Position numbers and translations under genes: made by a program
Assembly (NCBI GenBank): GCA_030280995.1
Contig: JASXTE010000001.1
Span: forward strand, 32,421,700 to 32,485,699
DNA: 64,000 nt
Direction: 5' to 3'
Source of the DNA: Hemileia vastatrix
Taxonomy: Eukaryota > Basidiomycota > Pucciniomycetes > Pucciniales > Zaghouaniaceae
In this document: in pieces, positions 25,984-60,856 of the stretch
Layout of the letters: every line of letters begins with the position of its first letter
How positions within the stretch are numbered: the first letter of the stretch is position 1
The notes under the pieces: generated by a model
Told to the model about the DNA's origin: nothing
Databases searched by the model: none
What the model saw: only the letters and a program-made list of their open reading frames with translations

Positions 25984-26650
25984 ATGGCTGATGCTGGCAG
26001 TCCTGACATTGAAATTGATTATGATGAGGGTTCAGTAAGTCCCAAATCAAGCCTTGATAATGATGGGTTTTCTGATAAACATTTTATAGGACATTCTTAT
26101 GGAGGAGAATGTGGACCTTCTGGATTGGACAGGAGAGCAGGAGAAGGTGAAAGTAGAGCCCCAAGTAGGACCTCCGCCCACAGCAGAGCCTCCAAAGCCC
26201 CTTTTTCCCCAAGAAGACCTTCCCAAAGGCTTCAAGATAAAAAAGCTCCCCTTAGAGGTACAAGTTCAAAATTTATCTCATCAGTTAAAGACAATTAAGG
26301 GGGAGTTAAACAAGGTAATCAAATTACAAGAGAGAGTCATAAAAGTAGAAAAGATGTGCCAGGATGCATTTCAAAGACGACTCAGAAAGCCCCTGCCAAA
26401 TCTACCAGTAAAGCAGCCTCCTCCTCAAAGCACCTTGCCTCCAAAACAACAGTTGCCCCCACCTCCACCTCCACCACCACCTGCTCCAGAAAACATGGTG
26501 GTACCGAGATGGCAGTGGGAATGGTACCAAACAAATTACCAACAAAGACAAGAAGGTCCTTCAAGACCACCTCTGCAACAGCACAATCTTCACCCTCATC
26601 CTTACCACAAGAAGAAGAAAGGGAAGCAAGTAGCCCAGAGGCCTTGGTGA
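25984..26650 (+). CDS. Element 1 accessory ORF (ORF-1), spliced, about 203 aa
   Basis: Exon 1 is 25984-26034 (17 codons, ending in the acidic IEIDYDEGS) with a GTAAGT donor. The intron is 26035-26089 (55 nt, TATAG acceptor; in-phase AGs also exist just downstream). Exon 2 is 26090-26650. Exon 2 carries PKGFKIKKLPLE, a coiled-coil heptad region (about 26255-26370), a run of prolines (about 26455-26490), the WQWEW motif and a basic tail ending RPW. The function is unknown: it resembles neither Gag nor Env and could be an RNA/DNA-binding accessory or assembly factor. The same gene plan with the intron at the same place is kept in four other copies in this window, which is the main support. An alternative reading is a gag leader disrupted by frameshifts, but five independent agreements argue against that. 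Confidence 0.7.
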
Positions 26651-28464: not shown

Positions 28465-31400
28465 AATGTGGATTTAATTGGTGTTGAAGATGCTGACGTA
28501 ATAAGGGATATTGAGAAGGATTCTATAGTCATTACTCCAATCAAAGCTCCTGTTATAATAAATGGGAAGAAATTGGACATTATCTTGGATACTGGTGCTG
28601 GAGGCAGTGTGGTATCCTCAGCAGCCTTGGCTGCCATTGATAATGACTATGAAAAGAAGCTATTACCTATGGCAAATACATATTGGAAAGGATATGGGTA
28701 TTTTTTATGCCCTAAAAGAAAATATAAGACAACTGTATTTTTTAAGTATAGCCTTGGGTATGTAAGAGCTGAATGTGATTTTGTTGTCATGGATGGTGAC
28801 AACTTGAGCAATTGGTTTATCATGGGGAATGATATTATTACAAAGTTTGGTATCAAATTGGACCCTGCTAATCAATGCTTCACTATGGGGATGAATGGGA
28901 AGAAAAAATTTAAAATTACTTCCTCCAGAAAATGTTCAGCTCCCATGGTAAAAACATGTTTTTCCCTTGATCAATACAAGGGCAGACCTTCTGCAGAACA
29001 TGAAGCTTTGTCTTATGAAATCCTAAAAGCTTCATTTGGTGAACAGCTCAGTACTGCAGAAAAGGATGAGGTAATTAAATTAATCACATCATTCCCTATG
29101 GCCTTTGCACATGGAAAACATGAGTTGGGACTGGTTGTGGACCATGAAATGAAAGTCTCATTATCATGTAAATTAGATGATATACCACCCAGTCTAAAGA
29201 AAAAACCTTATCCTGCATCCCCTTCTAAGAGAAAGGATATTGAGGATAATATTACCACCTTGTTAAATATGAAAATTATAGAGAAAGTGGGTGTAACACC
29301 TAAATATTGTGTAATCTCACCAGTCTTAATTTCTTATGAAAAGGACAAGGCTAGGTTGTGTGGTGATTATAGAGCCCTTAATACCCACACAATTGGTGAT
29401 ATTTATCCTCTACCAAGAATAAACTCAATACATTCTACCTTACAGGGAGCCAAGTATATCAGTTGCTTGGATGGGAATAAGGGATACCACCAAATACCTG
29501 TTGAGAAGGACTCACAAAATTATTTAATGATTGCAACTCACTTGGGTATTTACAAATACATTAGGATGCCTTTTGGCCCTAAGAATGCCCCTTCAGTGTT
29601 TCAAAAAGTGATGGACAATACTTTTCATCAAGAAATTATGGAGGGATGGATGATGGTGTACATTGATGACATCATTATTTTTTCAAAAACCTTTGAAGAT
29701 CATTTGGTTCACCTGAGTAAAGTGTTCCAGAAAATGGATGCCATCAATATGACCTTAGCCTTAAAGAAATGTAAATTTGGATTCCACTCCTTAAAGGTTT
29801 TGGGGCATGTTGTATCAGGTTTTCAAATATGTGTTGACCAAAATAAGGTGGCAGCCATACAGCATGTCAATGCACCTACCACTGTAAAAGAAGTGCAGAG
29901 TTTTTTGGGGATGTGTGGTTATTACAGGCAATATATAAAAAATTTTCAGGTAATAGCAGCCCCTCTGACACAATTGATCAGAAAAGAAGTGGCTTTTGTC
30001 TGGACAAATGAGAGACAAAGAGCCTTTGATGCCTTAAAACAATGTTTGGTTTCTGCTCCAATCTTGGGCCTACCAGATTTTAACCAGCCATTTGTTTTAT
30101 ACACTGATGCTAGTTTTGTTGGACTAGGAGCTGCTCTCCACCAAAAACAAGTCATCAATGAGAAAATCTCTGAAGTAGTAATCTGTTATATTTCAAGAAC
30201 CTTGAGAAACAGTGAATTGAAATATGGAGCCACACAACTGGAATGTTTGGCAGTTGTGTGGGCCCTGGATAAATTACATTACTATTTGGAGGACCATAAA
30301 TTTGAGCTGGTCACTGATTGTAGTGCAGTGAAGTCATTGTTGAACATGAAGACTCCTAACAGAAACATGTTTAGATGGCAGCTGGCAGTACAAGAATACA
30401 GAGGGAGGATGACAATTATCCATAGATCTGGAAATATGCATTCCAATGTGGATATGCTATCAAGATTACCCTTACCAAACAATGATTCCAATCCTGCATA
30501 TGTCCAAGAAGATGAGGTGACACACATATTTGGGGTATATATTGTGGATATGGAAGAGGAATTTATGCAATTAATTTTGGCTTCATATGAGGAAAATGCT
30601 GAGTTACAAAAACTCTGTACTATCTTAAATGATCCAAAAAATGCCTCTATTCAGCCCTTAATTAAGACATTGCCACTGAAATACCAGAATGCTCTTAACA
30701 AAGGAAAATTCTCCATTGAAGATGAGTATTTATATTACAGGAGGAAGCTCAGCAATGTAATTGTAATAGCCCCTTCAATGAAAGAGACAATTTTAAAACT
30801 TTGCCATGATGACATATTAGCAGGTCACTTTGACTATGAAAAGACACTAATCAGACTGAAGAATACAGCCTGGTGGATGAATATGTCTGAAGATGCAAAG
30901 ACATATGTTGAAACCTGTGATGCCTGCAAAAAATCTAAGAGAATGACAAGTAAGAGAGCAGGTTTGATGCAACATATTGAGAAGGAAGGAAAAACTTGGC
31001 AGATTGTTAACATGGATTTTGTCACTGGCCTTCCACCAGCAGGAAAAGAAAGTTTCAATTCTTGTTGGGTGATTGTGGATAGATTTACCAAAATGTGTAA
31101 ATTCATCCCTACTCATAAAGAGGTTTCCACAAAAGAATTAGCTTTCCTGTGGTGGTTACATATGTTCAACACTGCAGGTTTTCCCAAAGCTATTATTTCT
31201 GATAGGGATCCAAAATTGACTTCTGAATTCTGGATGTCCTTGATGGATATTTGTGGGTGTGAATTGAAATTGTCCACTGCTCACCATCCTCAAACTGATG
31301 GATTGGCTGAGAGAATGATTCAAACATTAGAAGACATGATTAGAAGATATTGTGCTTTTGGTCTTGAATATAAGGATAATGAAAGGTTTACACATGACTG

Positions 31401-32097
31401 GGTCACTTTATTGCCTGGCTTTGAATTTGCCTACAATAGTACTGTCCACTCAGTTACTGAAAGAAAGCCTTTTGAACTATGGCTGGGATATGTACCAAAT
31501 ACTCCTGCTCATTTACTCAATAATAACTTACCAAAAATTGACATTCACCCTGGTGCTAAATCTTTCCTCCAAATGCAACAATTATGTAGAAAACATGCTA
31601 ATAATTGTGTGGAGAAAGCTTTTGAATATGAGAAGAAAAGATGGGATAAATCCCATAAAGATTGCACTTTTAATGAGGGGGATGAAATTTTGATTTCAAC
31701 AGTACATTTTAACTTACAAGGTAATAATAAATTGAAGGATCCATTCATTGGGCCATTTATTGTTAAAAGAATGATAGGGACAAATGCAGTAGAAGTGATA
31801 CTGTATGCACCATATGATAGGAAACATCCTGTTTTTCCTATATCATTGATACAGCCTTACAAGTCAAATGATGACTTATTTCCAAAGAGAAGAGGGAGAC
31901 CTAAGAAAACTCCTTTGGAAATAGAAAATACTGCTGAAATAGAGAAAATCCTGAATGAAAGAACCCTTACAAAAGAGAAGGGTGTTGAGTATTTATTGAG
32001 ATATAAAGGCAAGTCCACTGAACATGACAGATGGATACCTGGAAAGGAGATAAGCAATTTGGCAACTCTTCTCAAAAAATTCAAAAAGAAAAAATGA
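28465..32097 (+). CDS. Element 1 Pol: protease, RT, RNase H, integrase, chromodomain
   Basis: The frame is open for 1210 codons without interruption. Residues counted from 28468 are: protease Asp41-Thr-Gly; reverse transcriptase with KARLCGDYRALN, MPFGPKNAPSVFQ and catalytic YIDD at 398-401; RNase H with YTDAS (Asp547) and the ATQLECLAVVWAL block. The integrase has an HHCC zinc domain (the CDAC pair at about 30917-30930) and catalytic Asp850, Asp912 and Glu948 (D-62-D-35-E). The C-terminus has the GPF-like IGPFIVKRM block, KRRGRPKK at about 1138-1147 resembling an AT-hook, and a chromodomain (AEIEKILNER, then GVEYLLRYKGK and WIP). A lysine run closes it. All active-site residues are present. 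It has no ATG of its own and must be made as a Gag-Pol fusion, which this copy cannot do because of the upstream stops. Confidence 0.95.
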   Translation, partial: NVDLIGVEDADVIRDIEKDSIVITPIKAPVIINGKKLDIILDTGAGGSVVSSAALAAIDNDYEKKLLPMANTYWKGYGYFLCPKRKYKTTVFFKYSLGYVRAECDFVVMDGDNLSNWFIMGNDIITKFGIKLDPANQCFTMGMNGKKKFKITSSRKCSAPMVKTCFSLDQYKGRPSAEHEALSYEILKASFGEQLSTAEKDEVIKLITSFPMAFAHGKHELGLVVDHEMKVSLSCKLDDIPPSLKKKPYPASPSKRKDIEDNITTLLNMKIIEKVGVTPKYCVISPVLISYEKDKARLCGDYRALNTHTIGDIYPLPRINSIHSTLQGAKYISCLDGNKGYHQIPVEKDSQNYLMIATHLGIYKYIRMPFGPKNAPSVFQKVMDNTFHQEIMEGWMMVYIDDIIIFSKTFEDHLVHLSKVFQKMDAINMTLALKKCKFGFHSLKVLGHVVSGFQICVDQNKVAAIQHVNAPTTVKEVQSFLGMCGYYRQYIKNFQVIAAPLTQLIRKEVAFVWTNERQRAFDALKQCLVSAPILGLPDFNQPFVLYTDASFVGLGAALHQKQVINEKISEVVICYISRTLRNSELKYGATQLECLAVVWALDKLHYYLEDHKFELVTDCSAVKSLLNMKTPNRNMFRWQLAVQEYRGRMTIIHRSGNMHSNVDMLSRLPLPNNDSNPAYVQEDEVTHIFGVYIVDMEEEFMQLILASYEENAELQKLCTILNDPKNASIQPLIKTLPLKYQNALNKGKFSIEDEYLYYRRKLSNVIVIAPSMKETILKLCHDDILAGHFDYEKTLIRLKNTAWWMNMSEDAKTYVETCDACKKSKRMTSKRAGLMQHIEKEGKTWQIVNMDFVTGLPPAGKESFNSCWVIVDRFTKMCKFIPTHKEVSTKELAFLWWLHMFNTAGFPKAIISDRDPKLTSEFWMSLMDICGCELKLSTAHHPQTDGLAERMIQTLEDMIRRYCAFGLEYKDNERFTHDWVTLLPGFEFAYNSTVHSVTERKPFELWLGYVPNTPAHLLNNNLPKIDIHPGAKSFLQMQQLCRKHANNCVEKAFEYEKKRWDKSHKDCTFNEGDEILISTVHFNLQGNNKLKDPFIGPFIVKRMIGTNAVEVILYAPYDRKHPVFPISLIQPYKSNDDLFPKRRGRPKKTPLEIENTAEIEKILNERTLTKEKGVEYLLRYKGKSTEHDRWIPGKEISNLATLLKKFKKKK

Positions 32098-32137
32098 AAC
32101 AGCATTTTTTTTATTGTTTTTTTTTTAGGTGAGGGAG

Positions 32138-32890
32138 TGTCAGCTAGCTGATTTGAAAGTATTAGTAAATATGATAATAAAAACTAAGTAAAGGACATCA
32201 GTAACTTACAGAGGATTGTTCAGTAGTGAAAATGCCCAAAAGAGGGCGTGAACCAATGTCCCAATTACCCTCCAAAGTGGGAAAATCCTGGAGTGGGAAT
32301 AAATTCTAATCATTAAAATTAGTATATATTTCTTTCTCACCTGACATGGGTTTTTCCCTGGGAAAATACATCACATGAGATGTATTGTTCTTTTCTTTTC
32401 TATCTTTTTATTTCTTTTTTCTCTGGAAACTTTATATTTGTTTCTCTTGTCATTTTTAGTCTCTTTATTTCCACGTTTTTGTTCTTTCTCTTTTGCCCCT
32501 GATGGGAATTATTTTATTTATCTAGTCTTTCTTGGGTCTATATAAGGGGGGGAAGATTTGGTGGAAATATCATTCCTATTTACACACATTTATCCAGTTA
32601 CCAACGTTGCCATCTTTTTTATTACTTTATAAGGTGTTACATTTACATCCTATTATTAGTTATAATTTAAAAAGGCCTAAGTTCAAATATTTAATTACCG
32701 TGTTGTAAGGGTTTCAACAAATAAAATAAAATCTTCTAATTTAAAATCCCCATTACTTTAGAAGTCACTACCTCTCAAATAACTATTACAATCTAAATTC
32801 TCTATTGATTAGTTATATCACCTTTATATTAACTAATATCTTGTTCAGGGTTACTGTCAAATTACTATACCTCTAGTCAACACCCTGACA
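32138..32890 (+). repeat. Element 1 3' LTR
   Basis: This 753-bp copy is preceded by the purine-rich tract AGGTGAGGGAG, the likely polypurine tract for plus-strand priming. It differs from the 5' LTR at about ten positions, for example the second CAGC being TAGC. Confidence 0.95.
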
Positions 32891-32895
32891 TTTCT

Positions 32896-32969
32896 AGAGG
32901 ATGTTGATGGTCTGGTATGAATATTGTTATTCAAATCAAATTTAGTATTAAAATATAGTTCAATATAAT
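32896..32969 (-). repeat. fragment of an older LTR (family of Element 5), right piece
   Basis: This is the continuation of 24196-24246 after the Element 1 target duplication. It ends where the Element 3 LTR begins (TGTCATCCAGGCTG at 32970), so Element 3 also inserted in this old LTR. Confidence 0.5.
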
Positions 32970-35348: not shown

Positions 35349-35380
35349 CTACCTCACTCTAAAAAATACAATAAAAAATG

Positions 35381-38300: not shown

Positions 38301-40802
38301 GTTAGTGGACAAGATGATGAAAGTTTCATTTCTTCTTTAACTAATCTTAGTTCATGTGACCCATGAGAAAAGGCCATATGAAAAGATTTTATCAATTCAA
38401 TGATGGAATCTTTACTCCCACCAGAAGGTTGTTCTCCAAAAGAAGCATTGTCAATTTCAGACATAAGGGCATACATTTCTTTTGTAGATCTTCCTTTATG
38501 TTGAACCACAGAATTACATGTGTTCAATTCTGGTTTTAAAAACTTTTTGGGGGAGGAAAATTAATATTTTCTCTTCCCATTCATCCCCATTGTGAAACCT
38601 TGGTTTTAAGGATCCAATTTGATGCCATACTTGGTTAAAATATCATTTCCTATAATAAACCAACTGCTTATGTTATCCTTTTTCATGACAACAAAATCAC
38701 AAATAGCTCTTACAAAACCATGGTTATATTTAAAAAACACTGTGGCTTTGTATTTACCAATGGGGGACAAAACAGAGCCATAACCTCTCCAATTTTCAGA
38801 AATGATAGGCATAAGTTTTGATTTATAGTCTTGATCCACTGAAGTAAGTGCTTTTTCAGATACTACACTTCCTCCAGCTCCAGAATCCAGAACAACTTTA
38901 ATGCTGGCTCCATTGATCAAGACTGGTGCTTTGAGAGGGGCAATAACAATTGAGCTATCCTCATTGTTCTTTATGATCTCAGCATCCTCAACTGTAGATA
39001 AATCATTATTATCAATATCAATAGTATTTAAATAATGAATATTGTCTTCCAGCATCAAGATTTCTTGTTGAGATTCATATGAAATGTTTCTGGCACAATC
39101 ACTTGAAGTATCATCCAGTGCTATTGTGTCATCAGAATTCTCCTCAGTTTGTTCAACAAGATTTATCTTCTTGTCACAAAAATGGCCTTTCTGACAAGGC
39201 TTGTTGCACTTGAAGCAAGTGGTTGTTGCATAATTTTTAGTTGCAACAGGGGCAGAAGGTTTACCAACCTTTTCCAGAGGTTTCTGTTGGTAAGTGGAGG
39301 GTTTCTCCAAAGGGGTTCTAGGAATGAATCTTCTGGCATCATACTTGTTGTTTAGAAGGATCTCATTACAAGTATTAATGAAAGTAGAAGGTGCTCTGGA
39401 GAACTCAGTCCTAGCCACTATAAAGTCTCTCAAAGACATTGGTAATTTATAAAGGATCCTATCCCTCCATAACTCAAACTCCATATTTGGGTCCATTGCC
39501 CTCAAGATTTTAACAAATTTCATTAAGAACTCAATAGTTTTATCAGTAGAAGAGCTATATCTAGTTTCCTCATACTTCCTTTGTTGAGCCATCCTAAACT
39601 TGGAGTAACCAAGTTGTGCTTTAATAAATTTCTTCCAATCTTCCCAGGAGTAGTCATTCCTATCCAAGAGAACAGATTCATACCACATTAGGGCTACATT
39701 GGTAAACAAAGAAATTAACTTAGACACAATTTCCTCATCTGGGCGTTTGTAAGAATTTTTTAGATTATCAATTCTTCAAATGAATTGCTGCCAATCAGAA
39801 GAAGAATAACCATCAAATGTTGGATACTGGTCAAGTTTTGGCCGATTCTTTTGATTTGAACTATTCTCCTTATTACAAGCTTGTTTCTGAGTGAGAAGGA
39901 GTTTTAACTTCTCCAATTGGGCAGTAATTTCATTGTTTAATCCTTATGTGGATGATCCAGGTACATCATCAATTTTTGATGGAAACTCAGTGATATCAAC
40001 AGGTATTTCTGAAACTAATTTTTCTTTGGATGAACTAGGAACAGGTAAAATTGGGGTATCCTGCTCAACAGGTTCTTTCAAAGAAATGTCAGAAAACTTT
40101 TGATTATATAAAAATTAATTCACTTTCTCCTCAATGGTTGTTAACCTAGTTTTTACTCTTGAAACACTAGATAAATTCTCATTGATGGTTGCAAAATATA
40201 ATTGATTCTTATTTCGTGAAGATGAATAATGGTTACTCAATCTTTCTAAGTTCATCTGGTGTCCCTCTAGCTCCTGGAAAACAGATGGACACAGTATCTT
40301 TTAATTTAGACAAATCATTCTTGATATTTCTCCATAAAGAAAATTTCTTTTCATGAGTAAATTTGTAATGAAACAAATCATCAGAAACTCTCTGTAACTC
40401 ACTCCTCAATGCTTGATAACCCTGTTCAGTTAACAAACTATTATATTTCTGAGTCAATTGCATGTTGTTCATTTTATGATTTTGTTTAGCAATAATATCT
40501 CTCAAATATTCATCATTAATGTTTGCTACATGTGGAGTTTTTATCAATAGTGAAACAGAATAACTTTCCAGATTCTCATAAAACTCAGGATCAAGTGTCT
40601 CATCAATAATAGCCATATTCCGATTTATCATTGAAGTAGCAATTAAAACCAAAGGATTAGATAAATTAGAATATTGAGCAATTTGTAAACTGTTCTCAGC
40701 CTCTACTGGCCTCACAGTCTCATCTCCTCTTCCAGAATTACCTGAAGGAACTGAATCAGTTACAAGAAATGGTACTTGAGATTAAATAGAGGGGCTTACC
40801 AT
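35381..40802 (-). pseudogene. Element 2 Gag-Pol, single ancestral frame, now broken
   Basis: It reads from the ATG at 40800-40802 (in the MVSPSI context, stop TAA at 40782-40784). Gag segments lie at 40715-40233 and 39727 onward. The stretch 39727-38606 runs through capsid, zinc knuckle (CFKCNKPCQKGHFC) and protease (VVLDSGAGGS) in one frame, showing that Gag and protease are fused in this family. RT pieces are at 38527-37973 and 37630-37334. RNase H and the integrase front are at 37327-36224 (YGATQLECLAAVWAL, CDSCQTSKR, IINIDFVTRL). The integrase end is at 36163-35628. The tail carries the RRGRPKK-like patch and a chromodomain, ending at TAG 35381-35383. Multiple frameshifts and stops make it non-functional. 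Confidence 0.9.
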
Positions 40803-41423
40803 GGCTTGGGTGAGACTTGGATGTTGTTGTTTTTTCTCCTTCTTCCTCCTTGGTAGGGATGAGGAGGTGTTGGGTTGAGCTGATTTGTTCTTGAAGGAAC
40901 TGCCTGAGGTACTTGTTTCTGTTGCTGTTGCTGTTGGGACAGATAATCCCACTGGGTTTTCAGCCAATCCCACTTCCACTTTGAGACTTCCACCTTTTCT
41001 TGTTGCTGGGGGGCCAGTTGTGGAAGGGCTTTTGGAGGAGGAGGTTTCTTCTTCTCTTGAAGAAAAGACTCTATGTTTCTTCCCTTGTCTTCTAGACAGT
41101 CTATTCTTGACCTCAGCTTGAGGTTTTCTGTCCTCAACTCCTTGATGTGAGTGGAGAGATTTTTTACCTTCTGATTAAAGGGCATCTTTTTTATCTTGAA
41201 GCCTTTGGGAAACTCTTCTGGGGGGTTGATAGAAGGCTTTTGTTCCTGAGCAGTTGTCTCCACTAATCTTTCCCTCTCCTGCATTTCTACATCCTGATTG
41301 GTCCAGTACTTGATTAATTTGAGCCAGTTTTGTAGTCAAAGGAGAACTTACAGAAGAAGCTTCATCATAATCAATCAAATCTAGTTCCTCATCATGGCCA
41401 GCAGAAGCACCTTGATCAGTCAT
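40796..41423 (-). CDS. Element 2 accessory ORF (ORF-1), spliced, about 189 aa
   Basis: Exon 1 is 41423-41352 (24 codons, ending DLIDYDEASS). The donor is GTAAGT, the intron is 41351-41294 (58 nt, ending CAATCAG), and exon 2 is 41293-40796. Exon 2 has PKGFKIKKMPFN, a coiled coil (LSTHIKELRTENLKLRSRID), a Pro/Lys-rich part, the WKWDWLKTQ motif, a Gln-rich part and a basic tail ending KPW before TAA. The stop codon overlaps the ATG of the Gag segment (CCATGGTAA). Both exons join in phase 0. The intron-retained frame is also open except for one TAA at 41175-41177. The function is unknown. Confidence 0.7.
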
Positions 41424-43157: not shown

Positions 43158-43264
43158 ATATACTTGAAATATTTTGAAATTTTTCTCTTATTTTTACAAC
43201 AAAGTAAAATAATAACTGATTAAATTTTAATATTTCTTTCTCTCAGTTCAGGTTGTCTACAACA

Positions 43265-43718
43265 ATGACTGATCAAAGTGCTTCTGCTGCCCATGATGTG
43301 GAACTAGACTTGATTGATTATGATGAGACTTCTGTAAGCTCTCCTTTGACTTAAAAACTTTTTCAAATTAATAAATTATTGGACCAATCAGGATGTGGAA
43401 ATTCAAGAAATAGAAATAATAGTGGAAAAAACTGCTCTCAATCAGATGCCTTTGGTGAACCCCCCAGAAGAGCTTCCAAAAGGATTAAAGATAAAAAAGA
43501 TGCCCTTGCAACAGAAAGTCAGAAACCTCTCAGCTCACATCAAGGGGTTGAAGGCAGAGAGTCTCAAACTAAGATCAAAAGCAGAAATTCTAGAAGAAAA
43601 GGTAAGAAACATAGAATCCTTTCTTCAAGAGAAGAGGAAACCTCCTCCAGCACTAAAAGCCCTTCCACCATTGGCCCCTCAACATCAGCGAAAGATGGAA
43701 GTTTCAAAATGGCAATAG
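43265..43718 (+). pseudogene. Element 3 accessory ORF (ORF-1), spliced, truncated by a stop
   Basis: Exon 1 is 43265-43333 (23 codons, ending DLIDYDETS), the donor is GTAAGC, and the intron is 43334-43391 (58 nt, ending CAATCAG). Exon 2 is open to 43718. Exon 2 contains PKGLKIKKMPLQ and the coiled coil (LSAHIKGLKAESLKLRSKAE). It stops at a TAG directly after SKWQ, where Element 2 has WKWDW, so the C-terminal part of ORF-1 is lost. The start codon and splice sites match those of Element 2. Confidence 0.65.
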
Positions 43719-44346
43719 GACTGGCTAAACACCCAGTGGGACTAACTCCAGGCCCAACAACAACAACAACAACAACAGCAAGCACCTCAGGCAGGTCCTT
43801 CCTGAACTTATCAGTTCAACCCATCACCTCCTCACCCCTACCAAGGAGGAAGAAAGAAGAAGAACAATCACATTCAAATTTTGCCAAAACCATGGCAAGC
43901 CCCTCTATTGAATCCCAAGTACCTTTTCTTTTTACTGATTCAGTTCCTTCAGGTAACTCTGGAAGAGAAGATGATACTTTGAGAACAGTAGAGACTGACT
44001 GTAGTAAGCAGATTGCTCATTATTCTAATAAAACTAGCCCTTTGGTATTAATTACTACTTCAATGATAAATTCTGATATGGCTATTATTGATGAAAAACT
44101 TGATCCTGAAATTTATGAGAATCTGAAAAATTATTCTGTTTCCTTATTAAGAATTACTACAGATGTAGGTACCATTAATGATTAATATTTAAGGGATATT
44201 ATTGCTAAAAAAAATCATATAATGAACAACATGAAATTGACTCAGAAATTTAATAGTTTGTTAACTGAACAAGGTTATCAATCAGTGAGAAGTGAGTTAC
44301 AGAGAGTCACTGATGATATATTTCATTACAAAGTAACTTATGAAAA
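43355..44346 (+). pseudogene. Element 3 Gag, N-terminal part, overlapping ORF-1
   Basis: With the intron retained, the frame from ATG 43265 has a TAA at 43352-43354 and is then open to 44183. It spans the whole ORF-1 region in a second frame and runs into Gag without a break (MASPSIESQVPFLF, then LVLITTSMINSDMAIIDEKL). After a TAA at 44183-44185 homology continues (LTEQGYQSVRSELQRVTDD) to 44346, where Element 5 LTR sequence begins. A CAA microsatellite at about 43756-43780 lies inside. It is the best example here of one frame reading through the overlap into Gag. Confidence 0.75.
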
Positions 44347-45625: not shown

Positions 45626-45803
45626 CTTTCCCACCCAAAAAAAACATTAAAAAAATGATAAGTTATGCACTTTTTTATTTCATATTTTTTTTCAGGTATT
45701 CAGAAAATTCTGTAGCATTAAAGATTAATTCTTTAAAGAAATAAAACATAACAAAATATTATGAGTACTGGTTTTTTAACCCCTCAGATGGATGAACAGT
45801 AAT

Positions 45804-50087: not shown

Positions 50088-51230
50088 TGTCAGCCAGGCT
50101 ATTCCAGGAGTCCAGTAAATGATATGTTATCTTATAAGACCTGAAAGAGGGCGTAAGAATTGTATTTAATGTATATAAATTAATATTTTACTGCAAAATA
50201 AAATTATATAAGTATCTTATTACATATAAGTGTTATATTAATTTTATTGTTTATATAAATTTTTTATACATATAAATTAAACATAATACATATTATATTC
50301 TACAAATAATGGCGCATTTTTATGTATTTAATAATTATAAATTTATATTTAATTAATTGAAAAACATATATTATAATTATAAGTGTAAAATTGACTTATA
50401 ATATAATTAAATTAATTATTTAAATTTATATATTAAATAATACCTTTCATATAATACTAAACAATAATTAATGACACTTCTTTTGACCCTTAATTGTGTC
50501 AGGAAAAACCATTTAATTAATTTATACTAAATTGAGATTAATTACATGTTTTGTTGCGTCAAAGTATTTTTTGTTTCACTTAAAATATCCTTAAATCAGA
50601 CTGTACCATCTGTTTGGAATTATTTTTCTCATAGTTCCTATGTTCCAGTCTTGTTTAGTTATTCACTATTTTTACTTATTGATTTGGGAATTAATGGCGG
50701 GAAAATTGGATTCTAAATTGGGGTTTTAATTATTTGTTTCATATTTTTCTCTACATTGTTATGTTTCACTTACTCTTTGATATACTTGTTTTATTCTATT
50801 ATAATTATTGTATTTACAAATATAGTGGCGCTTCAGAGGACCCATTGCCTATAAAAGGGCCTTGGATAATCCCCTGTAGCCTCATCACTTATTATACACT
50901 CAACAAATTAAATACACTTTTTATATTACGTTTATATTCTTTTTATTAGTAATAAAATTCTAATTAAAATTCTATATAACAAATTAAAGGTTGCTTTAAG
51001 TCTGATAGTGATCATAGTGTCTGCTGTGCATAGCCCTTACATCATAATAATATTATTAATTAATAATAACCTCATATTTGTCACCTCTCAAGAAAACCGT
51101 CTTTGATTCCTCTCAATAAATTAAATAATTTTACTAAATTTTATTTCTCTTATTACCCATACTCCTTTTCTCCTTCTCCTCCTCTCATTTCTTCCCTCTT
51201 TTCTTATCTCTTCTAGATGACTGACCGACA
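50088..51230 (+). repeat. Element 4 5' LTR
   Basis: It runs from TGTCAGCCAGGCTATTCC to GACTGACCGACA. The TATA box TATAAAAG is at 50850-50857. The short ORF at 50734-50949 recurs in the other LTR only because the LTR is duplicated. Confidence 0.95.
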
Positions 51231-51921
51231 ACTGAGGGCCTTTCCAAACGACGACGACAATCAAGCCTGGCGACAAACCACAAACGCATGGACCACCTAG
51301 CAAAAAAAAAAAAATTTGCCGCGACTGTGTTTTGAACTTGGGTTCGATTTCTTAGGTTTATATTATATTAATTCTTATATTATTTTGAAGTGATTTTTCG
51401 ATCACTATAGTAAGTTCACCTTTGCACCTCTCACTCATATTACTATATTTTTACTGCAATAACAGTGATTGTGGCTTAACTGCTGATTCACTGAGTGTAA
51501 GTGTTCAATTATTAAAATTTTTTATTCCTAGTTGACCATTATAGAGTGTTAAATCCTCTTAGTCCTAGAAGAATTGACATTTTTTATTAATACAAATTGA
51601 ATTATTAATTTAATTTTTTATTATTATTAATTATTGTTAATTTTGGTTGACTTAAAAATACTTTGTGATTAGTCCCAAATATATTTCCATATTTAATATT
51701 GGTAATTAATTGGTTGAATTAACTTGATTGTTTATTCCCAATTTAACCTTGCAATCCATTTTTTAAAAATTAATTTTTTTATAATTATTACTTTATATTG
51801 AAATTTTTTTTTCTATAATTTAATTAATAAATTTTTTTTTTTATTATTTGGAGCAATTATTAACTAACTTTTATTATTTTTTTTTAAAAAATAAGAAGTA
51901 AATTAAAATCTTCCCACTATT
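51231..51921 (+). other. Element 4 leader
   Basis: It starts ACTGAGGGCCTTTCC directly after the LTR. It carries an A13 run at 51301-51313. It has one long version of the leader hairpin (CCTAGTTGACCATTATAG to TTAGTCCTAG, about 51527-51571), in which CTAG faces CTAG and GAC faces GTC. A GGTTGACTT to AGTCCC relative is at about 51646-51684. The rest is AT-rich without features. Confidence 0.55.
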
Positions 51922-52603
51922 ATGTCCAACAATTTGGCTGAAAAAATGGATAACATGCAAGTGGATGAAATTGAAATTGACTATGATGCTGACACTGTAA
52001 GTTCTTCTAAAGTTGGACATAAAAAATCTTATGCTAACACAAAGAATTCACATGCTGCAGGATGTGGAAATGACTGGAAATGTAAACAAAACAAACCCCC
52101 TTCCCCCAGCACCACAGAAGGAAGTAAAGCCTCTAGTACCTCAAGAAAGTCTTCTAAAAGGATTCAAAATAAAAAAGCTTCCTCTGCCACAACTAATCAG
52201 CAACCTGTCCAGTCATATAAAAGAGTTGAAAACAGAAAATATGACGTACAAAGCAAAAGTAGACACATTGTGGGATCAGGTCCAAGAACTCAGGAACCAG
52301 ATTCAGGCCCAGGACCCTCCTCAGTTGCCTCCCAATCAGCCTCAGTTTCAGGCTCAACCTTCACAGCCACCCAGCTCAACCATCCAAAATCCAAATACTA
52401 TGGAAGTAGAGCAATGGAAATGGGATTATATAATGAGTCACTACCAACAGAATGTGCAACACCCTCCTCATAATCAGCCTGGCCCATCCAGAACACCCAA
52501 TTTCCATCCACCTCCTCATCCCTACCAACAAGGCAGGAGAAAGAAGGCCCAAGCACAATCCCAAACCCAGTCCCAGGGGAGGTTTCCTCCTCTTCCATGC
52601 TAA
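51922..52603 (+). CDS. Element 4 accessory ORF (ORF-1), spliced, about 205 aa
   Basis: Exon 1 is 51922-51996 (25 codons, ending EIEIDYDADT) with a GTAAGT donor. The intron is 51997-52060 (64 nt), with a CTAAC branch-point-like sequence at 52034-52038 and a TGCAG acceptor. Exon 2 is 52061-52603, both in phase 0. The product has DVEMTGNVNKTNP, KGFKIKKLPLPQ, a coiled coil (about 52180-52280), a Pro/Gln-rich middle, QWKWDY and a basic tail. Its TAA overlaps the first ATG of the Gag segment (ATGCTAA at 52597). The intron-retained frame is open over the same stretch apart from TAA 52471-52473. This is the most complete example of the shared ORF-1 plan. Confidence 0.75.
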
Positions 52604-55600
52604 GTAATTTGGTTGATAGTCACTTGGGTATGTTTTCTAATAAATCTTCTTCTGCAGGTAATATTATTGAACATGGTGAAAGAACAGTTAAACCTGTTAA
52701 AAGACAGCTTCCTGTAACTAGTAGCCCTATTGATGTAATTAGCGAATTGTCATTTGATGAACCTTTACATTTAACTTCTACTTCTTTAATTAATCCTTCT
52801 CTTGCAATTAAAAATGATTCTGTTCCCCCTGAAATCTATACCTTAATTGAAAAAACTTCTGAGGAAATATTGAAAGATACCCTTGATTTTAATGTTGTGA
52901 AAGACAAACATGTGAGAGAAGTGTTAATCCATGAAAATGATAGATTAAATAATTTACACTTGCAATGTAAAGTGAGTTCTTCTGTACAAGATACAGCTTA
53001 TTTAAAAATCAAAGAAACCTTAAATATTGTTCTTAGTCAACAAAAGCAAATAAGAAGTGACCATAGAGCTATCTCAGATAGAAATATCAGTCTACATAAG
53101 ACCTTGAGTGAATTGAAACCCCTTATTGAAAAAAATTATTCATTCAAAAATGAAATAAAATCTCTGCAAAATGAGTTTAAAAAGCTAAGAAATGATTTCC
53201 ATGCACTAAGTACCAAACACTCAGTTTCTGAGGACAGAAATGTTCTATCTCTTGCAAAGGTAAATGACCAGATGTCTGAAATTCCAAGAATAAGAAACTA
53301 TGTGTCTAACCTGCAGGAAAAGTTCTCAACCTTAACCATAAATAATGAATTAAATGAGATTGCTGTCAATAAGCTGCTTAATAATAAAGGGAAAAAACCT
53401 GAGCAAAGTTCATCCTTTCTTCCTCATATTTCAACCATTAAACAAACTGACAATGAGTCTGTAAAATCTTTTGCTACCAGCAAAAAATCTTGTGATGGTC
53501 ATGCACCAGCTGTTTCTGTAAATAATGAAATTTCTGAACACCTGGCTAAACTTCAGGAATTATTAATAATGAATAATTCAAACCAAAAAGTGGACCATCC
53601 CAGTAGTCAGAAAAATTGGCCTAAGTTAGACCAATATCCTACCTTTGATGGTGATTCTTCCTCTGATTGGCAACACTTTATCCAAAGAATTGATAATTTA
53701 AAGAGATCTTATAAACTACCTGATGAGGAAATTGTTTCTAAGCTAATTTCTTTATTTTCCAATGTAGCCTTGATGTGGTATGAATCTGTTCTTTTAGATA
53801 ACAATCATTATACATGGAATGATTGGAAATCCTTGATTGAGAATCAGTTTGGTGGTTCAAAATTCAGGTTAGCTCAACAGAGACTGTATGAAAATACTAG
53901 ATATGTATCCTCCTCTGTTGAAAAGCCCATTGTTTTTCTGATGAAAATAACAAAAATCCTTAGAGCAATTGATCCAAGGATGGATTATGATATTTGGAGA
54001 GATAAAATCTTGTATAAATTACCAAATTCTCTTAGGGATTTTATTGTGGCTAGAACTGAGCATGTAAGGGAAAATTCTTCTTTCATTAATATCTGTAATG
54101 AAGTACTGCTCAACCATAGATATGAACCAAAGAATTACCTTGGTAAATCATATAATGATCAGAATAAACCTTCTACAAAGTTCCCAGAGAAATCTGGTAA
54201 ACCCTCTGCCCCAGTTGCACCTAAAAAATATGCAACAAATACTTGTTATAAATGTAACAAACTGTGGCAGAAGGGTCATGTTTGTGACAAGAAAATTCAT
54301 CTTGTTGAACAAAATGAAGACACTGATTAAGTTGAACTTGATGTCAATTATTCTTCCAGTGACTGTGAAAGTAATATCTCCTATGACAATGAATCTGTTA
54401 AAGATGTTTTAATGTTGGAATATGATGTCCATTATTTAAATAATATATCTGAAGATTGTGTATTGAATTTATCTTCAGTAGAAAATGCTGAGATAATTAA
54501 AGATATTACTAACAATTCTATTCCTATATCCCCTTTAAAGGCACCTGTATCATTAATGGTAAAAATGTTGATGTAGTTCTTGATTCTGGTGCTGGAGGAA
54601 GTGTAGTATCTGAAAAAGCTTTGGCTTCAGTGGATAAGGAATATTTGAGTAAATTATTACCTATAACTTCTGAAAAATGGAGAGGGTACGGTTCTACCTT
54701 ATTTCCTATTTGCAAATACAAAACCTCTGTTTTCTTCAAATATAATAATGGTTTTGTCAGAGCTATTTGTGAGTTTGTTGTCATGAAAAATGATAATTTG
54801 AGCAATTGGTTTATTATGGGAAATGATATTTTAACCATGTTTGGTGTGAAACTGGACCCAGCAAATAATTGCTTTACCTTAGGAATGAATGGAAAAGAAA
54901 ATTCAAAATTTCCTCTCCTAGAACTTCTGGGCATTTATTGAAATCTTGTAACTCACTGATCCAGTGTAAAGGTAGAACAACAACTGAAATGGATGATTTA
55001 TTACATGAAATAAATACCGCTTCTTTTGGTGATCAGTTGACTAGTGAACAAAAGGATTCTATTGTTGCCTCTATTACCTCTTTCCCTATGGCTTTTGCTC
55101 ATGGTTCTCATGTCTTGGGAATTGTTCAGGAAGAAATGAAAATTACCTTATCCTGTAATTTGAGTGATATTCCTCCTACCCTTAAGAAAAAACCATATCC
55201 TGCTTCTCCATCAAAAAGAAAAGATATTGAAGATAATATTGAAAAATTATTGAAAATGAATATCATTGAGAAAGTGGATGTCACCCCCAAATATTGTGTC
55301 ATCTCCCCAGTCTTGATTTCTTATGAAAAAGATAAAGCTAGATTATGTGGAGATTACAGAGCTTTAAATACTTATAATGTTGATGATATTTATCTTTAAC
55401 CAGAATTAATTAAATACATGCTACCTTGCAAGGTGCAAAATTCATTAGTTGTCTGGATGGTAATAAGGGTTATCATCAAGTTCCAGTTGAGAAAAATTCT
55501 CAAAATTTTTTGCTTATTTCTACTCACATGGGAATATATAAGTATGTTAGGATGCCATTTGGCCGTAAAAATGCTCCTTCAGTTTTCCAGAAGGTTATGG

Positions 55601-58086
55601 ATAACACTTTTCATCAAGAAATTATTGAAGGTTGGCTCATGGTTTATATTGATGATATTATTGTTTTTTCTAAAACTTTTGATGAACATATGATTCACTT
55701 GAATAGAGTTTTCCAAAAAATGGATGAAATCAATATGACCTTATCTTTAAAAAAGTGTAAATTTGGTTTTCAATCTTTGAAAGTCCTTGGCCATGTTGTG
55801 TCAGGCTTACAAATTTGTGTAGACCATAATAAAGTTTCTGCCATTCAAAATGTGAAAGCACCAACTTCTGTAAGAGAAATCCAAAGTTTTTTTGGTATGT
55901 GTGGCTATTATAGACAATATATTAAAAATTATCAGGTCATAGCCTTGCCTCTTACAAAACTGACCAGAAAAGATGTTGCTTTTCTCTGGAATAATGACTG
56001 TCAAAAAGCTTTTGATACATTAAAAATTTGCTTAATGAAAGCCCCTATATTGGCTCTTCCAGATTTTAACAAGCCATTTGTCCTTTATACAGATGCTAGC
56101 TTTATTGGTCTGGGTGCTGCCCATCACCAAAAGCAAATTATTAATGATAAATCCTCAGAGGTTGTAATTTGTTATATTTCAAGAACCTTAAGAAATAGTG
56201 AATTGAAATATGGTGCCACTCAATTGGAGTGCTTAGCAGTTGTTTGGGCTCTTGAGAAACTTCATTACTATTTGGATGACCAAAAATTTGAGTTGGTAAC
56301 TGACTGTAGTGCTGTGAAGTCTCTCTTAAACCTAAAGACACCTAACAGACATATGTTCAGGTGGCAACTTGCTGTTCAAGAATACAGAGGAAGGATGAAA
56401 ATTATCCATAGAGCTGTAAATGTTCACTCTAATGTTGATATGCTCTCCAGATTGCCTCTGCCAAATAATGACTCAAATCCTGCTTATGTACCTGAAGATG
56501 ATACTGTTCATATCCATGGTATATTTATAGTTGATATGGAAGAGGAGTTATTACAGTTAATACTGGATTCATATGATAAAGATTCTGATTTAAATAAATA
56601 GGTTACTATCTTAAATGATCCTAAGAATGCTTCAATTCAAGCATTAATAAAAACTCTTCCTGAAAAGTACCAAAATGCTTTAAATAAAGGAAAGTTCTCT
56701 ATTCAAGATGGTTATATATATTATAGAAGGAAGCTTACCAATGTAATTGTAATTCCTCCTTCAATGAAAGAAACTATCCTTAAACTTTGTCATGATGACA
56801 TATTAGCTGGTCATTTTGATCTTGAAAAAACATTGATTAGAATCAAAAACACTGCATGGTGGGCTAATATGTCTGAAGACACAAAATTATATGTTGAATC
56901 TTGTGATTCCTGCCAAAAATCTAAAAGTTTAACTGGTAAGAGAGCAGGGTTATTACAACATATTGAAGCACCTAGTGCTCCCTGGCAAATCATTAATATG
57001 GATTTTGTCACTGGTCTTCCTGTTGCAGGTAAAGACAGCTTTAACTATTGTTGGGTAATAGTGGATAGATTCACAAAAATTTGCAAATTTATTCCAACCC
57101 ACAAAGATGTATCCACCAAAGAATTAGCTTTCTTATGGTGGTCTTACATGTTTAATATTATTGGTTTTCCAAAAGCCATTATCTCTGATAGGGATCTAAA
57201 ATTCACTTCTGAGTTTTGGACCTCTTTGATGGATATTTGTGGCTGTGAGTTAAAATTGTCTACAGCTCACCATCCTCAGACTGATGGTCTAGCTGAAAGA
57301 ATGATTCAAACTCTTGAAGATATGATTAGAAGGTATTGTGCCTTTGGTTTAGAATATAAAGACAATGACAGATTTACTCATGATTGGGTCACTCTTTTGC
57401 CTGGTCTTGAATTTGCATATAATAGCACTGTTCATTCTGTCACTGAGAAAAAGCCTTTTGAGCTTTGGTTAGGCTATGTCCCAAACACTCCTGCTCAGAT
57501 TCTCAATAATAAATTACCTAAGTTGGAACTACACCCTGGTGTAAAATCTTTTATGCAAATGCAACAGCTATGCAGAAAACATGCTCAGAGTTGTATTGAT
57601 AAAGCATTTGAATATGAAAAGAAAAGATGGGATAAATCCCATAAAGAATACACATTTAACAAGGGTGATGAAGTGTTGATCTCTACTGTCCATTTCAATT
57701 TACAAGGTAACCACAAATTAAAAGATCCTTTTGTAGGACCATTTGTTGTTAAAAGAATGGTTGGTGATAATGCAGTAGAAGTTGTATTGTATTCTCCATA
57801 TGATAGGAAGCATCCTGTCTTTCCCATTTCTTTGCTTAAACCTTATACTTCCAACAGTGACTTATTTCCAAAAAGAAGAGGAAGACCTAAGAAGAACCCT
57901 CATGAAGTCACAGAAACAGCAGAAATTGATAAAATTCTCAATGATAGAATTATCACTTCTGAAAGAGGTACTGAATATTTATTGAGATATAAGAACAAAT
58001 CATCTGAACATGATGCATGGATACCAGGCAAGGAGATTTCAAATCTCCCTACTCTGTTGAAAAAATACAAAAAGAAAAAATCTTAG
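52597..58086 (+). pseudogene. Element 4 Gag-Pol, nearly intact
   Basis: Gag runs from 52597 to 54330, with a long helical N-terminal half, the capsid block YPTFDGDSSSDWQHF and zinc knuckle CYKCNKLWQKGHVC. A TAA at 54328-54330 interrupts the Gag-Pol frame. One-base deletions near 54550 (just before protease DSGAGGS), 54896 and 55392 shift the frame three times and together restore the original frame. RT (VYIDDI near 55650), RNase H and tether are then open from 55400 to a TAG at 56599-56601. The same frame continues through the integrase (CDSCQKSKS, INMDFVTGL, HHPQTDGLAERM), the RRGRPKK patch and the chromodomain to 58086. The catalytic motifs are present, so the copy is only slightly damaged or the deletions are assembly errors. 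Confidence 0.9.
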
Positions 58087-58119
58087 CATTTTTTTTATTG
58101 TTTTTTTAGAGTGAGGGAG

Positions 58120-59262
58120 TGTCAGCCAGGCTATTCCAGGAGTCCAGTAAATGATATGTTATCTTATAAGACCTGAAAGAGGGCGTAAGAATGGTATTTA
58201 ATGTATATAAATTAATATTTTACTGCATAATAAAATTATATAAGTATCTTATTACATATAAGTGTTATATTAATTTTATTGTTTATATAAATTTTTTATA
58301 CATATAAATTAAACATAATACATATTATATTCTACAAATAATGGCACATTTTTATGTATTTAATAATTATAAATTTATATTTAATTAATTGAAAAACATA
58401 TATTATAATTATAAGTGTAAAATTGACTTATAATATAATTAAATTAATTTTTTAAATTTATATATTAAATAATACCTTTCATATAATACTAAACAATAAT
58501 TAATGATGCTTCTTTTGACCCTTAATTGTGTCAGGAAAAACCAATTAATTAATTTATACCAAATTGAGATTAATTACATGTTTTGTTGCGTCAAAGTATT
58601 TTTTGTTTCACTTAAAATATCCTTAAATCAGACTGTACCATCTGTTTGGAATTATTTTTCTCATAGTTCCTATGTTCCAGTCTTGTTTAGTTATTCACTA
58701 TTTTTACTTATTGATTTGGGAATTAATGGCGGGAAAATTGGATTCTTAATTGGGGTTTTAATTATTTGTTTCATATTTTTCTCTAAATTGTTATGTTTCA
58801 CTTACTCTTTGATATACTTGTTTTATTCTATTATAATTATTGTATTTACAAATATAGTGGCGCTTCAGAGGACCCATTGCCTATAAAAGGGCCTTGGATA
58901 ATTCCCTGTAGCCTCATCACTTATTATACACTCAACAAATTAAATACACTTTTTATATTACGTTTATATTCTTTTTATTAGTAATAAAATTCTAATTAAA
59001 ATTCTATATAACAAATTAAAGGTTGCTTTAAGTCTGATAGTGATCATAGTGTCTGCTGCGCATAGCCCTTACATCATAATAATATTATTAATTAATAATA
59101 ACCTCATTTTTGTCACCTCTCAAGAAAACCGTCGTTGATTCCTCTCAATAAATTAAATAATTTTATTAAATTTTATTTCTCTTATTACCCATACTCCTTT
59201 TCTCCTTCTCCTCCTCTCATTTCTTCCCTCTTTTCTTATCTCTTCTAGACAACTGACCGACA
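58120..59262 (+). repeat. Element 4 3' LTR
   Basis: This 1143-bp copy is preceded by the purine tract AGAGTGAGGGAG. The TATA box TATAAAAG is at 58882-58889. It is followed by the target duplication ATTTA and then Element 5 gag. Confidence 0.95.
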
Positions 59263-60823
59263 ATTTAATTCCCTCACTCAATACAGATTCAAACCATAAT
59301 AAGGCCACATCTGAAAATAAAGATATTAATTTGGATGTAATTTCTTCATCAGGTAATTTGTATGAAAATTTTAAGTTATCAATTTGTTGAATCAATTGTT
59401 GCCAATCAGATTTTGAATCCCTGTCAAAATAAGGGTACTGATCTAACTTAGGCCAGTTCTTTTGGTTAATTTTTGCGTCCCTAACCTGAGGAATATTAAG
59501 TAATTCAATTACTTTAGAAAGATGATCATTTATGTCATCTTTTACTGATTTTATATTCTCAGAGCCCATGACACCATGTTCATGTTTGATCATTGGTTTA
59601 TCATATGAGTGTTTCATAAAAACTAGTACTCTTTCCACATAAGAGGTATTATCTTTTATTTTATCAGTATTTCTCAGAATGTTAGCTATTTCAATTTCTA
59701 CTCTTTGTAACCTATATTTTATTACAGGTACATGAGTTAAGGCATCATTCACATTTGAAAAAGACAATTTTACATGTCCCACTTTGGTAGCCATAATATT
59801 CTGTGAATGTTCCACTTTATTTTCTAAATTTTTAATCTCAGAGTTTAATCTTTTTTTTTCATTGATCAATTCATTATTTGAATTCTCAATAATTTTTAAC
59901 CTATTGGCTGTTGTATTCAATGATTATGTGAGTTTAATAATACACTTTCTGTATTATTCTTTGACTCTCTAGAGAATTTGTCCAATTTTTCAATTCATAA
60001 TAATAATTTGCTAATTATTTCTGATGCCATTGGATTTTCTTTTAGAAAATATTCATTTTTTTCTGTGTCCAATTCAGAAGAATCATCATCAGGTTCAAGA
60101 TTTAATTCATTTGGTTCCATTTTTATATTAATAGCATTATCCTGGTGGCCCATAAAACTATGTACATTGTCCTCATTTAAAGACAAGTTTAACATGTTAT
60201 TTTCAAATGAATAATTTTTTAAATCCTTATCAATTATATCCAATAACTCTATCAATTTCATTACCTATAATTAATTCATTGTTAGGATTATATAATTGAT
60301 CCTGAGAAGATGGATGAATTACCAAGGTCTTATTCCATTTCCCCTGCCTCTCCTTGTCTTTTCCCTGTAAGGGTGACTGCTGGAGCCCTGCTGTTGATGG
60401 TTGTTGTAGTTTTGGGCATACCAGTCCCACTTCCATTTGCTTAAAGTAAGTTTTTGGTCCTCCTCTTGGGCTGGAGGAGTGGCTCTGGGACTGTTGGATG
60501 CAACTGTTGTTGGTTGAGCCTTTATTTCCACCAGAGCTTGATTGACTTCTATGAAACCCTGAGCTGCTCTTTTCTCCAGATTGTTTATCTGGTATACTAT
60601 GTTGTTTACTCTTATTGTTAAGGCGTTCAGTAGAGTGGATAGGGATTGAATTTGTTCTTTTAAGGTATTTCTTGTTTTCTTTATTGATACCTGTTTTAAC
60701 AGTTTTTCCCTTTCCTCCAGAGACATTTGTGGAGTGTTGCTGTTTGTGGGGGAATCCTGGCCCTCTATTTGAATGTTCTGTAACAGGTCTTTCAGCTCTA
60801 GGTCTTAAGCTATAAGATTTTGC
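59263..60823 (-). pseudogene. Element 5 Gag, first part
   Basis: The intron-retained frame from the ORF-1 start has a TAG at 60824-60826. It is then open for 197 codons (60823-60233), overlapping the whole of ORF-1 exon 2 in a second frame. A TAA at 60230-60232 and a frame change follow (59995-60261 in another frame, with an acidic DDDSSELDTEKNE block). The capsid segment QYPYFDRDSKSDWQQLIQQI lies in the original frame near 59420. Homology ends at 59263, where Element 4 interrupts codon-level continuity with 50087. The rest of Gag is on the other side of that insertion. Confidence 0.8.
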
Positions 60824-60856
60824 CTAATTACTCACAATATCATTGATGTCACACAT
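60319..60856 (-). CDS. Element 5 accessory ORF (ORF-1), spliced, about 153 aa
   Basis: Exon 1 is 60856-60836 (seven codons, MCDINDI), the donor is GTGAGT, the intron is 60835-60757 (79 nt, ending GGCCAG), and exon 2 is 60756-60319. Exon 2 has a helical N-terminal part with heptads (about 60600-60690), Pro/Ala-rich linkers, the WKWDWYAQNY motif, a Gln/Ser stretch and an Arg-rich tail ending RPW before TAA. It lacks the PKGFKIKK block seen in the other copies and has a much shorter exon 1, so it is the most divergent member, yet it keeps phase 0 splicing and the W motif. The start is inferred from splicing. Confidence 0.55.

Follow-up and report, generated by a model that had tools for sequence, protein, structure and literature searches.

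The window, i.e., the whole 64,000-nt stretch of DNA that was analyzed, is AT-rich and dense with retroelements. Its comparison with itself revealed a nest of Ty3/Gypsy chromoviruses over positions 24247-64000 which, as read from the coordinates, would be three levels deep: element D hosts elements C and E, element E hosts element B, and element A lies beside D. The same comparison identified LTR pairs for A, B, C, and E and no second LTR for D within the window. The elements and the Pol region of A are as follows:

24247..32893, plus strand: element A, LTRs at 24247-25002 and 32138-32893, 98.5% identical
28465..32097, plus strand: Pol of copy A, with reverse transcriptase, RNase H, integrase zinc domain, and chromodomain above the Pfam cut-off, integrase core and protease below it
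start near 32950-32970, plus strand: element D, split by C and by E, probably continuing at 63033
34562-43160, minus strand: element C, LTR pair 92.1% identical, interrupting D
44352-63028, minus strand: element E, LTR pair 97.2% identical, interrupted by B
50088..59263, plus strand: element B, LTRs at 50088-51231 and 58120-59263, 98.5% identical, within E by its coordinates

The Pfam order RVT_1, RNaseH, Integrase_H2C2, rve, Chromo is found in one open reading frame (ORF) in A and in two in B, with rve below the cut-off in both, and the best match of A Pol among solved structures (PDB) is Ty3-G Gag-Pol (2.3e-127). Judged by this domain order and the C-terminal chromodomain, elements A and B are Ty3/Gypsy chromoviruses. 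Gag is less readily recognized, with a weak profile match to the Arc2 capsid (E 0.082), a Retrotran_gag_2 match under the cut-off in B (0.011), a knuckle-like CYKC...GHVC seen by eye in B, and a poor structure model (pLDDT 39.6). No relatives of the Pol pieces were found in viral contigs, bacterial and archaeal genome contigs, or phage records, a result of little weight given that these collections are viral or prokaryotic, and an Rfam scan returned nothing at gathering scores. Elsewhere in the window lie genes for a Tet-like 2OG oxygenase and a MatE transporter, Ty1/copia remnants on the minus strand at 2333-6774 (RVT_2, SH3_retrovirus, gag_pre-integrs), and, at 1-2000, a region of 52% GC with strong skew that by eye resembles a non-LTR reverse transcriptase.

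The 5' ends of the five copies share one layout, starting at 25984 (A, plus strand), 51922 (B, plus), 41423 (C, minus), 43265 (D, plus), and 60856 (E, minus). In all of them, a short in-frame exon 1 with a length divisible by 3 is followed by a GTRAGY donor, an intron-like stretch, and an AG acceptor. The donors start at 26035, 51997, 41351, 43334, and 60835 in A to E and read GTAAGT, GTAAGT, GTAAGT, GTAAGC, and GTGAGT; the intron-like stretches measure 55, 64, 58, 58, and 79 nt, each 1 modulo 3 and in phase 0, and the chosen acceptor is AG|GA in every copy. The initial annotation had reported precisely these donors, spacings, and phases, and its coordinates proved right in all five copies. 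The acceptor of E is the weakest of the five, since it was picked among several AGs because ORF-1 opens there. All between-copy comparisons below concern these five copies, all within one window.

25984..26034, plus strand: exon 1 of copy A
26035..26089, plus strand: candidate intron 1 of copy A, 55 nt
26090..26650, plus strand: ORF-1 exon 2 of copy A, 186 codons plus stop
25984..28182, plus strand: R frame of copy A into Gag, stops at 26296 and 28180
51922..51996, plus strand: exon 1 of copy B, common start of R-Gag and ORF-1; MSNNLAEKMDNMQVDEIEIDYDADT
51997..52060, plus strand: candidate intron 1 of copy B, GTAAGT..GCAG, 64 nt, with a CTAAC branch-like site
52061..52603, plus strand: ORF-1 exon 2 of copy B, 180 codons plus stop, with a coiled coil, a WKWDY motif, and HPY plus a basic tail
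51922..54330, plus strand: R frame of copy B into Gag, stop at 52471, then open up to a stop at 54328
41352..41423, minus strand: exon 1 of copy C
41294..41351, minus strand: candidate intron 1 of copy C, 58 nt
40796..41293, minus strand: ORF-1 exon 2 of copy C, 165 codons plus stop
43265..43333, plus strand: exon 1 of copy D
43334..43391, plus strand: candidate intron 1 of copy D, 58 nt, containing the R stop at 43352
43392..43895, plus strand: remnant of ORF-1 exon 2 of copy D, three internal stops
60836..60856, minus strand: exon 1 of copy E, 7 codons
60757..60835, minus strand: candidate intron 1 of copy E, 79 nt, containing the R stop at 60826
60319..60756, minus strand: ORF-1 exon 2 of copy E, 145 codons plus stop

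Past the acceptor, the frame of the separate ORF-1 protein that had been proposed to follow intron removal runs without a stop over 186, 180, 165, and 145 codons in A, B, C, and E; this part of the proposal holds in these four copies and failed in D, with its three internal stops. The intron-retained frame, hereafter R, was said to flow into Gag-Pol with a single stop per copy. Counted from the start codon, this holds up to the point at which the overlap with ORF-1 ends, and the stops (first base 26296, 52471, 41177, 43352, and 60826 in A to E) all lie at different places, the positions 41175 and 60824 given earlier being the last bases of the codons at 41177 and 60826. The stops of D and E fall within the intron-like stretch, outside the overlap. 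Past the overlap, further stops occur at 28180 in A, 54328 in B, and 40784 in C, and E shows stops and frame breaks from 60232 on. Around this region of E (60330-59700), an open run of 89 codons in the ORF-1 frame directly follows the second acceptor-like site and the R/Gag frame returns further on, a pattern that may reflect either two indels or real processing. The third frame over ORF-1 exon 2 contains 12, 14, 10, 13, and 13 stops in A to E (first 117 codons in D).

The splice sites are conserved across the copies, as judged from the sequence, and splicing of intron 1 itself is inferred from these signals. GTRAGY is found at 6 sites in 16,883 nt of Gag-Pol but close to the start codon in each of the five copies; a depletion of GTRAGY in Gag-Pol was considered and is not significant (4 versus 7.6, P = 0.094). 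The intron 1 donors are good. Among the branch-like sites, that of B is of fair quality (CTAAC, 23 nt before the 3' end), those of A, C, and D are weaker, and intron 1 of E has no match to the branch-site pattern used. A second intron-like stretch, of 55 to 58 nt and again 1 modulo 3, surrounds the ORF-1 stop in all five copies:

26647..26701, plus strand: candidate intron 2 of copy A, GTGAGT..ATAG, 55 nt, containing the ORF-1 stop codon
52600..52657, plus strand: second intron-like stretch of copy B, 58 nt, around the ORF-1 stop
40742..40799, minus strand: candidate intron 2 of copy C, GTAAGC..TCAG, 58 nt
43895-43952, plus strand: second intron-like stretch of copy D, 58 nt
60265..60322, minus strand: candidate intron 2 of copy E, GTAATT..ATAG, 58 nt

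Its donors read GTGAGT, CTAAGT, GTAAGC, GCAAGC, and GTAATT in A to E, i.e., GTRAGY in A and C only and degenerate in B, D, and E, and the CT of copy B makes this stretch probably not spliceable there. In each copy, a CTRAY site (by eye) precedes AG|GTRA. Gag-Pol has 3 instances of this 3' site pattern in 16,883 nt, a rarity that is inflated because the pattern was drawn from these same copies; the pattern could partly be conserved Gag residues, and the donor likeness could partly be the conserved PW-stop. In A, C, and E, the predicted ORF-1 end is PW-stop with or without removal of intron 2; upon removal, B would lose its PC-stop end and D, without a stop there, would gain one. We regard this candidate second intron around the ORF-1 stop as no more than a lead. 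A fully spliced Gag was rejected, as the required frame in exon 2 is full of stops.

The leaders upstream of exon 1 measure 690 to 981 nt and are depleted in ATG, with 2, 1, 4, 3, and 6 in A, B, C, E, and D versus 13.5, 10.5, 17.2, 14.6, and 19.3 expected from dinucleotide shuffles; LTR ends were taken from the window self-comparison and the D leader was joined across its insertion. Their 3' ends are free of ATG over 233 to 631 nt. Thus, the exon 1 AUG would be the natural start for unspliced RNA. In copy B, this region is as follows:

51232..51921, plus strand: leader of copy B, 1 ATG versus 10.5 expected, final 631 nt free of ATG

GTRAGY sites are present in the leaders of A (25003-25983), B (51232-51921), and E (60857-61757) and absent from those of C and D, and in A, C, and D the ATG directly follows AG tracts, which are pyrimidine-rich in C and D. 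These signals would allow for an intron in the leader.

A further result concerns the openness of R. Since R codons start at the ORF-1 wobble base, an R stop arises wherever an ORF-1 codon ending in T is followed by AA, AG, or GA. When synonymous codons were shuffled inside each ORF-1 with the protein and the codon counts fixed (first 117 codons of D), 9.1, 7.2, 7.2, 5.1, and 6.6 R stops were expected in the overlap of A to E versus 1, 1, 1, 0, and 0 observed, a deficit with P ≤ 0.0004 in each copy. Moreover, T occupies the ORF-1 wobble position in 3 of 167 stop-making contexts versus 157 of 386 other contexts (P = 6e-26, five copies pooled), an avoidance with P below 1e-4 in every single copy; in a control drawn from the Gag-Pol of A and B (five segments), the corresponding counts (421/778 versus 839/1652) do not differ significantly. 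R is therefore under strong selection for openness in each of the five copies. The decayed copy D was kept in the R tests, with 117 codons first and 168 later, and left out of alignment A3, which holds four of the five copies. Inside intron 1, A, B, and C lack R stops, which is no significant departure from chance (P = 0.34, 0.23, and 0.32), and D and E hold one each. The single R stop per copy, present even in A and B with their LTR identities of 98.5%, fits decay and may exceed expectation for young copies.

ORF-1 is likewise conserved beyond what R imposes, according to comparisons among the copies. In each of the 10 copy pairs, its similarity is above that of any of the 500 R-preserving shuffles, a test that favors ORF-1 because the alignment was built on ORF-1, and pairwise identity of exon 2 ranges from 23 to 70%. 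C and D differ at 22, 24, and 59 sites at ORF-1 codon positions 1, 2, and 3. Permutation of R codons yields more ORF-1 stops than observed in A, B, C, and E (P ≤ 0.0084) with the exception of D (P = 0.002, 0.005, 0.008, 0.18, and 0.002 for A to E), and synonymous shuffles of R make ORF-1 openness significant only in A and E (P = 0.014, 0.14, 0.08, 0.56, and 0.017). Given use of the proposed junction, the ORF-1 protein would have ~150 to 205 residues. It displays an acidic IDYD in exon 1 of A, B, C, and D that is absent from E, and then IKK (all five copies), a W-K/Q-W-D/E motif (four of five, interrupted by a stop in D), HPY with a basic stretch after it (all five), and PW near the end (four of five, PC in B). 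A helix at residues 42-83 of exon 2 is predicted as a block with pLDDT 90 to 96, the remainder being poorly predicted. No Pfam family scored above the cut-off in the ORF-1 frames of A, B, and C; the matches below it are coiled-coil look-alikes in B and C, and A had none.

The initial annotation held both frames to be under selection. This is borne out for the openness of R and the conservation of ORF-1, and it was overstated for the amino acids of R, on which selection appears weak or undemonstrated. Under a null that also forbids new R stops, P falls below 0.05 in 6 of 10 copy pairs by BLOSUM score and in 4 of 10 by identity, and C-D, one of the significant pairs, is confounded by recent ancestry. 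Among the 25 clean synonymous wobble differences between C and D, none creates an R stop where 1.1 are expected (P = 0.28), and mild R changes are not favored either (P = 0.32). R may mainly be an open spacer.

Altogether, the sequences show two maintained frames and an intron-like stretch that the five copies have conserved. We propose a model, to which we give a probability of about 0.75, of an overprinted chromovirus 5' end in which R-Gag is made from unspliced RNA and ORF-1 from intron-1-spliced RNA, with a shared AUG. Unspliced RNA would serve both as genome and as R-Gag-Pol mRNA, read from the first usable AUG, and R would form an N-terminal region continuous with Gag. Removal of intron 1 would lead from the same AUG into the other frame and hence to ORF-1, whose product would combine the shared N terminus (acidic in A to D), a coiled coil, a Trp-rich motif, and a basic tail. 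The second intron, if real, would make the ORF-1 mRNA multiply spliced and bar it from Gag synthesis.

In complex retroviruses, spliced RNA encodes small regulators, Rev and Rex, that act on intron-containing RNA and carry oligomerizing helices and an arginine-rich motif. An LTR element with a comparable arrangement is described in the accessible text of PMC10309623, which contradicts the earlier statement that none was known. In Cer1, a Gypsy/Ty3 element of Caenorhabditis elegans, a spliced mRNA sharing the Gag start gives rise to CERV, an RNA-export factor required for export of Cer1 genomic RNA (PMC10309623). According to that text, CERV has five exons, of which four are in the polyprotein frame and one is in another frame, the last of the five lying in the env position, with exons 1 to 3 of cerv in the gag frame and exon 4 in the other frame; a potential leucine zipper and a candidate basic nuclear localization signal are also reported (PMC10309623). 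Compared by description, Cer1 makes, and the present elements would make, Gag-Pol from unspliced RNA and, from a spliced mRNA, a second protein with a Gag-frame start and an other-frame exon. Here, given use of the proposed junction, exon 1 is in frame with both Gag and ORF-1, the other-frame exon inside gag corresponds to ORF-1 exon 2 (145 to 186 codons in four of five copies), and the coiled coil and basic tail of ORF-1 resemble, in descriptive terms, the zipper and nuclear localization signal of CERV. In contrast to Cer1, most of the second protein is overprinted here, and there is no env-position exon in A, the copy considered on this point, where Pol ends at 32097 and the 3' LTR starts at 32138.

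Introns are also described as setting the products of other LTR elements. The facultative GT-AG intron of BARE1, a barley Ty1/copia element, divides translation between RNA pools, and its splicing closes the frame directly after Gag so that Gag alone is made (PMC3735527); it would share with our elements the apportioning of products between RNA pools, but the account gives BARE1 no new overlapping protein. In EVD of Arabidopsis, a spliced, prematurely terminated RNA yields short Gag, and the Ogre intron is mentioned as generating a subgenomic RNA, with no dual coding described for either in the accessible text of these sources (PMC8892269, PMC12786077). In our elements, intron 1 precedes Gag, and a transcript that lost it would lead into ORF-1 rather than to Gag without Pol, as made from the spliced RNAs of BARE1 and EVD. 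Nothing like the present arrangement appears in the accessible text of a fungal chromovirus survey (PMC2864245), a rotifer paper (PMC5408684), or a fission yeast genome paper (PMC10085805), and a keyword literature search that covered few subscription papers showed, among the matches listed, no fungal or chromovirus spliced, overprinted protein of this size.

Several other explanations of the two open frames have to be weighed. That only ORF-1 is coding and that R is open through chance, codon bias, or dinucleotide avoidance would agree with the weak amino-acid selection on R and with the one R stop in each copy, but it is hardly tenable and already largely excluded by the R stop deficit in synonymous shuffles and by a wobble-T avoidance that is specific to stops. 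Within TpA contexts, wobble T is found in 3 of 131 stop-making cases versus 9 of 48 others and, within TpG contexts, in 0 of 36 versus 15 of 46, so that dinucleotide avoidance is not the cause of R openness. Alternatively, ORF-1 could be the true Gag N terminus, made from spliced RNA and joined to Gag by a -1 frameshift, upstream R then being untranslated. The Gag frame is indeed -1 to ORF-1, and an A-AAA-AAG heptamer common to A-D lies in the ORF-1 frame at the conserved IKK (exon 2 codons ~34-52), although a heptamer pinned by both protein frames could be a by-product. E has no heptamer, and the frameshift would make Gag the minor product, which is unusual. Wobble T is avoided upstream of the heptamer too (0 of 42 stop-making versus 36 of 78 other contexts, with E cut at a quarter of its length), so that R is more than the frame into which a -1 frameshift would lead. 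Stop counts in this upstream part are too low for significance in four of the five copies, and the per-copy shuffle test is weak (P = 0.038, 0.093, 0.051, 0.063, and 0.139 for A to E). We thus reject the frameshift as the origin of R openness and consider the whole explanation very unlikely; the overlap is most likely translated in the R frame from its very beginning.

It is improbable, though less so, that both frames are translated from unspliced RNA, with ORF-1 reached via leaky scanning or reinitiation at an internal AUG after the supposed acceptor. Such an AUG is the fourth exon 2 codon in A, B, and C (DILM, DVEM, and DVEM), and a short ATGATG minicistron in exon 1 of A to D that ends at a TAA within the donor (by eye) could feed reinitiation. 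However, the first ORF-1-frame AUG is codon 19 in D and codon 11 in E, and this route has no need of the GTRAGY donor, the AG|GA acceptor, phase 0, and the 1-modulo-3 length, all kept in the five copies. A different matter is what ORF-1 does within the proposed architecture. By analogy with CERV or Rev/Rex, we tentatively suggest that it regulates unspliced RNA, e.g., its nuclear export, a role that stays doubtful; the predicted helix at 42-83 and the basic tail would fit it and are no proof. The main alternative is a particle or RNA-binding role in the same architecture (particle assembly, nucleic-acid chaperone, or antisilencing), which is a serious possibility, short of even odds, and overlaps in its odds with the model proposed above. 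A coiled coil, disorder, and a basic tail suit many roles, and the ORF-1 frames of A, B, and C fall into no Pfam family above the cut-off; on the other side, and without being decisive, the Cer1 regulator CERV is described as made from a spliced mRNA unable to make Gag (PMC10309623).

The best reading of the arrangement in these chromoviruses, i.e., R-Gag from unspliced and ORF-1 from spliced RNA, is a variant of the Cer1/CERV-type spliced second protein that is mostly overprinted here. A bolder version, which we think rather unlikely, would have a fungal LTR lineage evolve, independently of retroviruses and of Cer1, a two-intron switch whose multiply spliced mRNA yields a Rev/CERV-like regulator overprinted almost wholly on the Gag N terminus, the ORF-1 stop of A, C, and E lying in the second 5' splice site and being re-formed by the 3' exon. 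The gene families of the window and the short introns point to a fungal host. If this is right and the proposed model is true, splice-controlled second proteins, long regarded as a hallmark of complex retroviruses and lately described in a worm element, have arisen in chromoviruses of fungi as well, by overprinting. Overlaps of about 440 to 560 nt in several diverged copies would be good material on the origin of overprinted proteins, which annotation that allows one frame per region will overlook.
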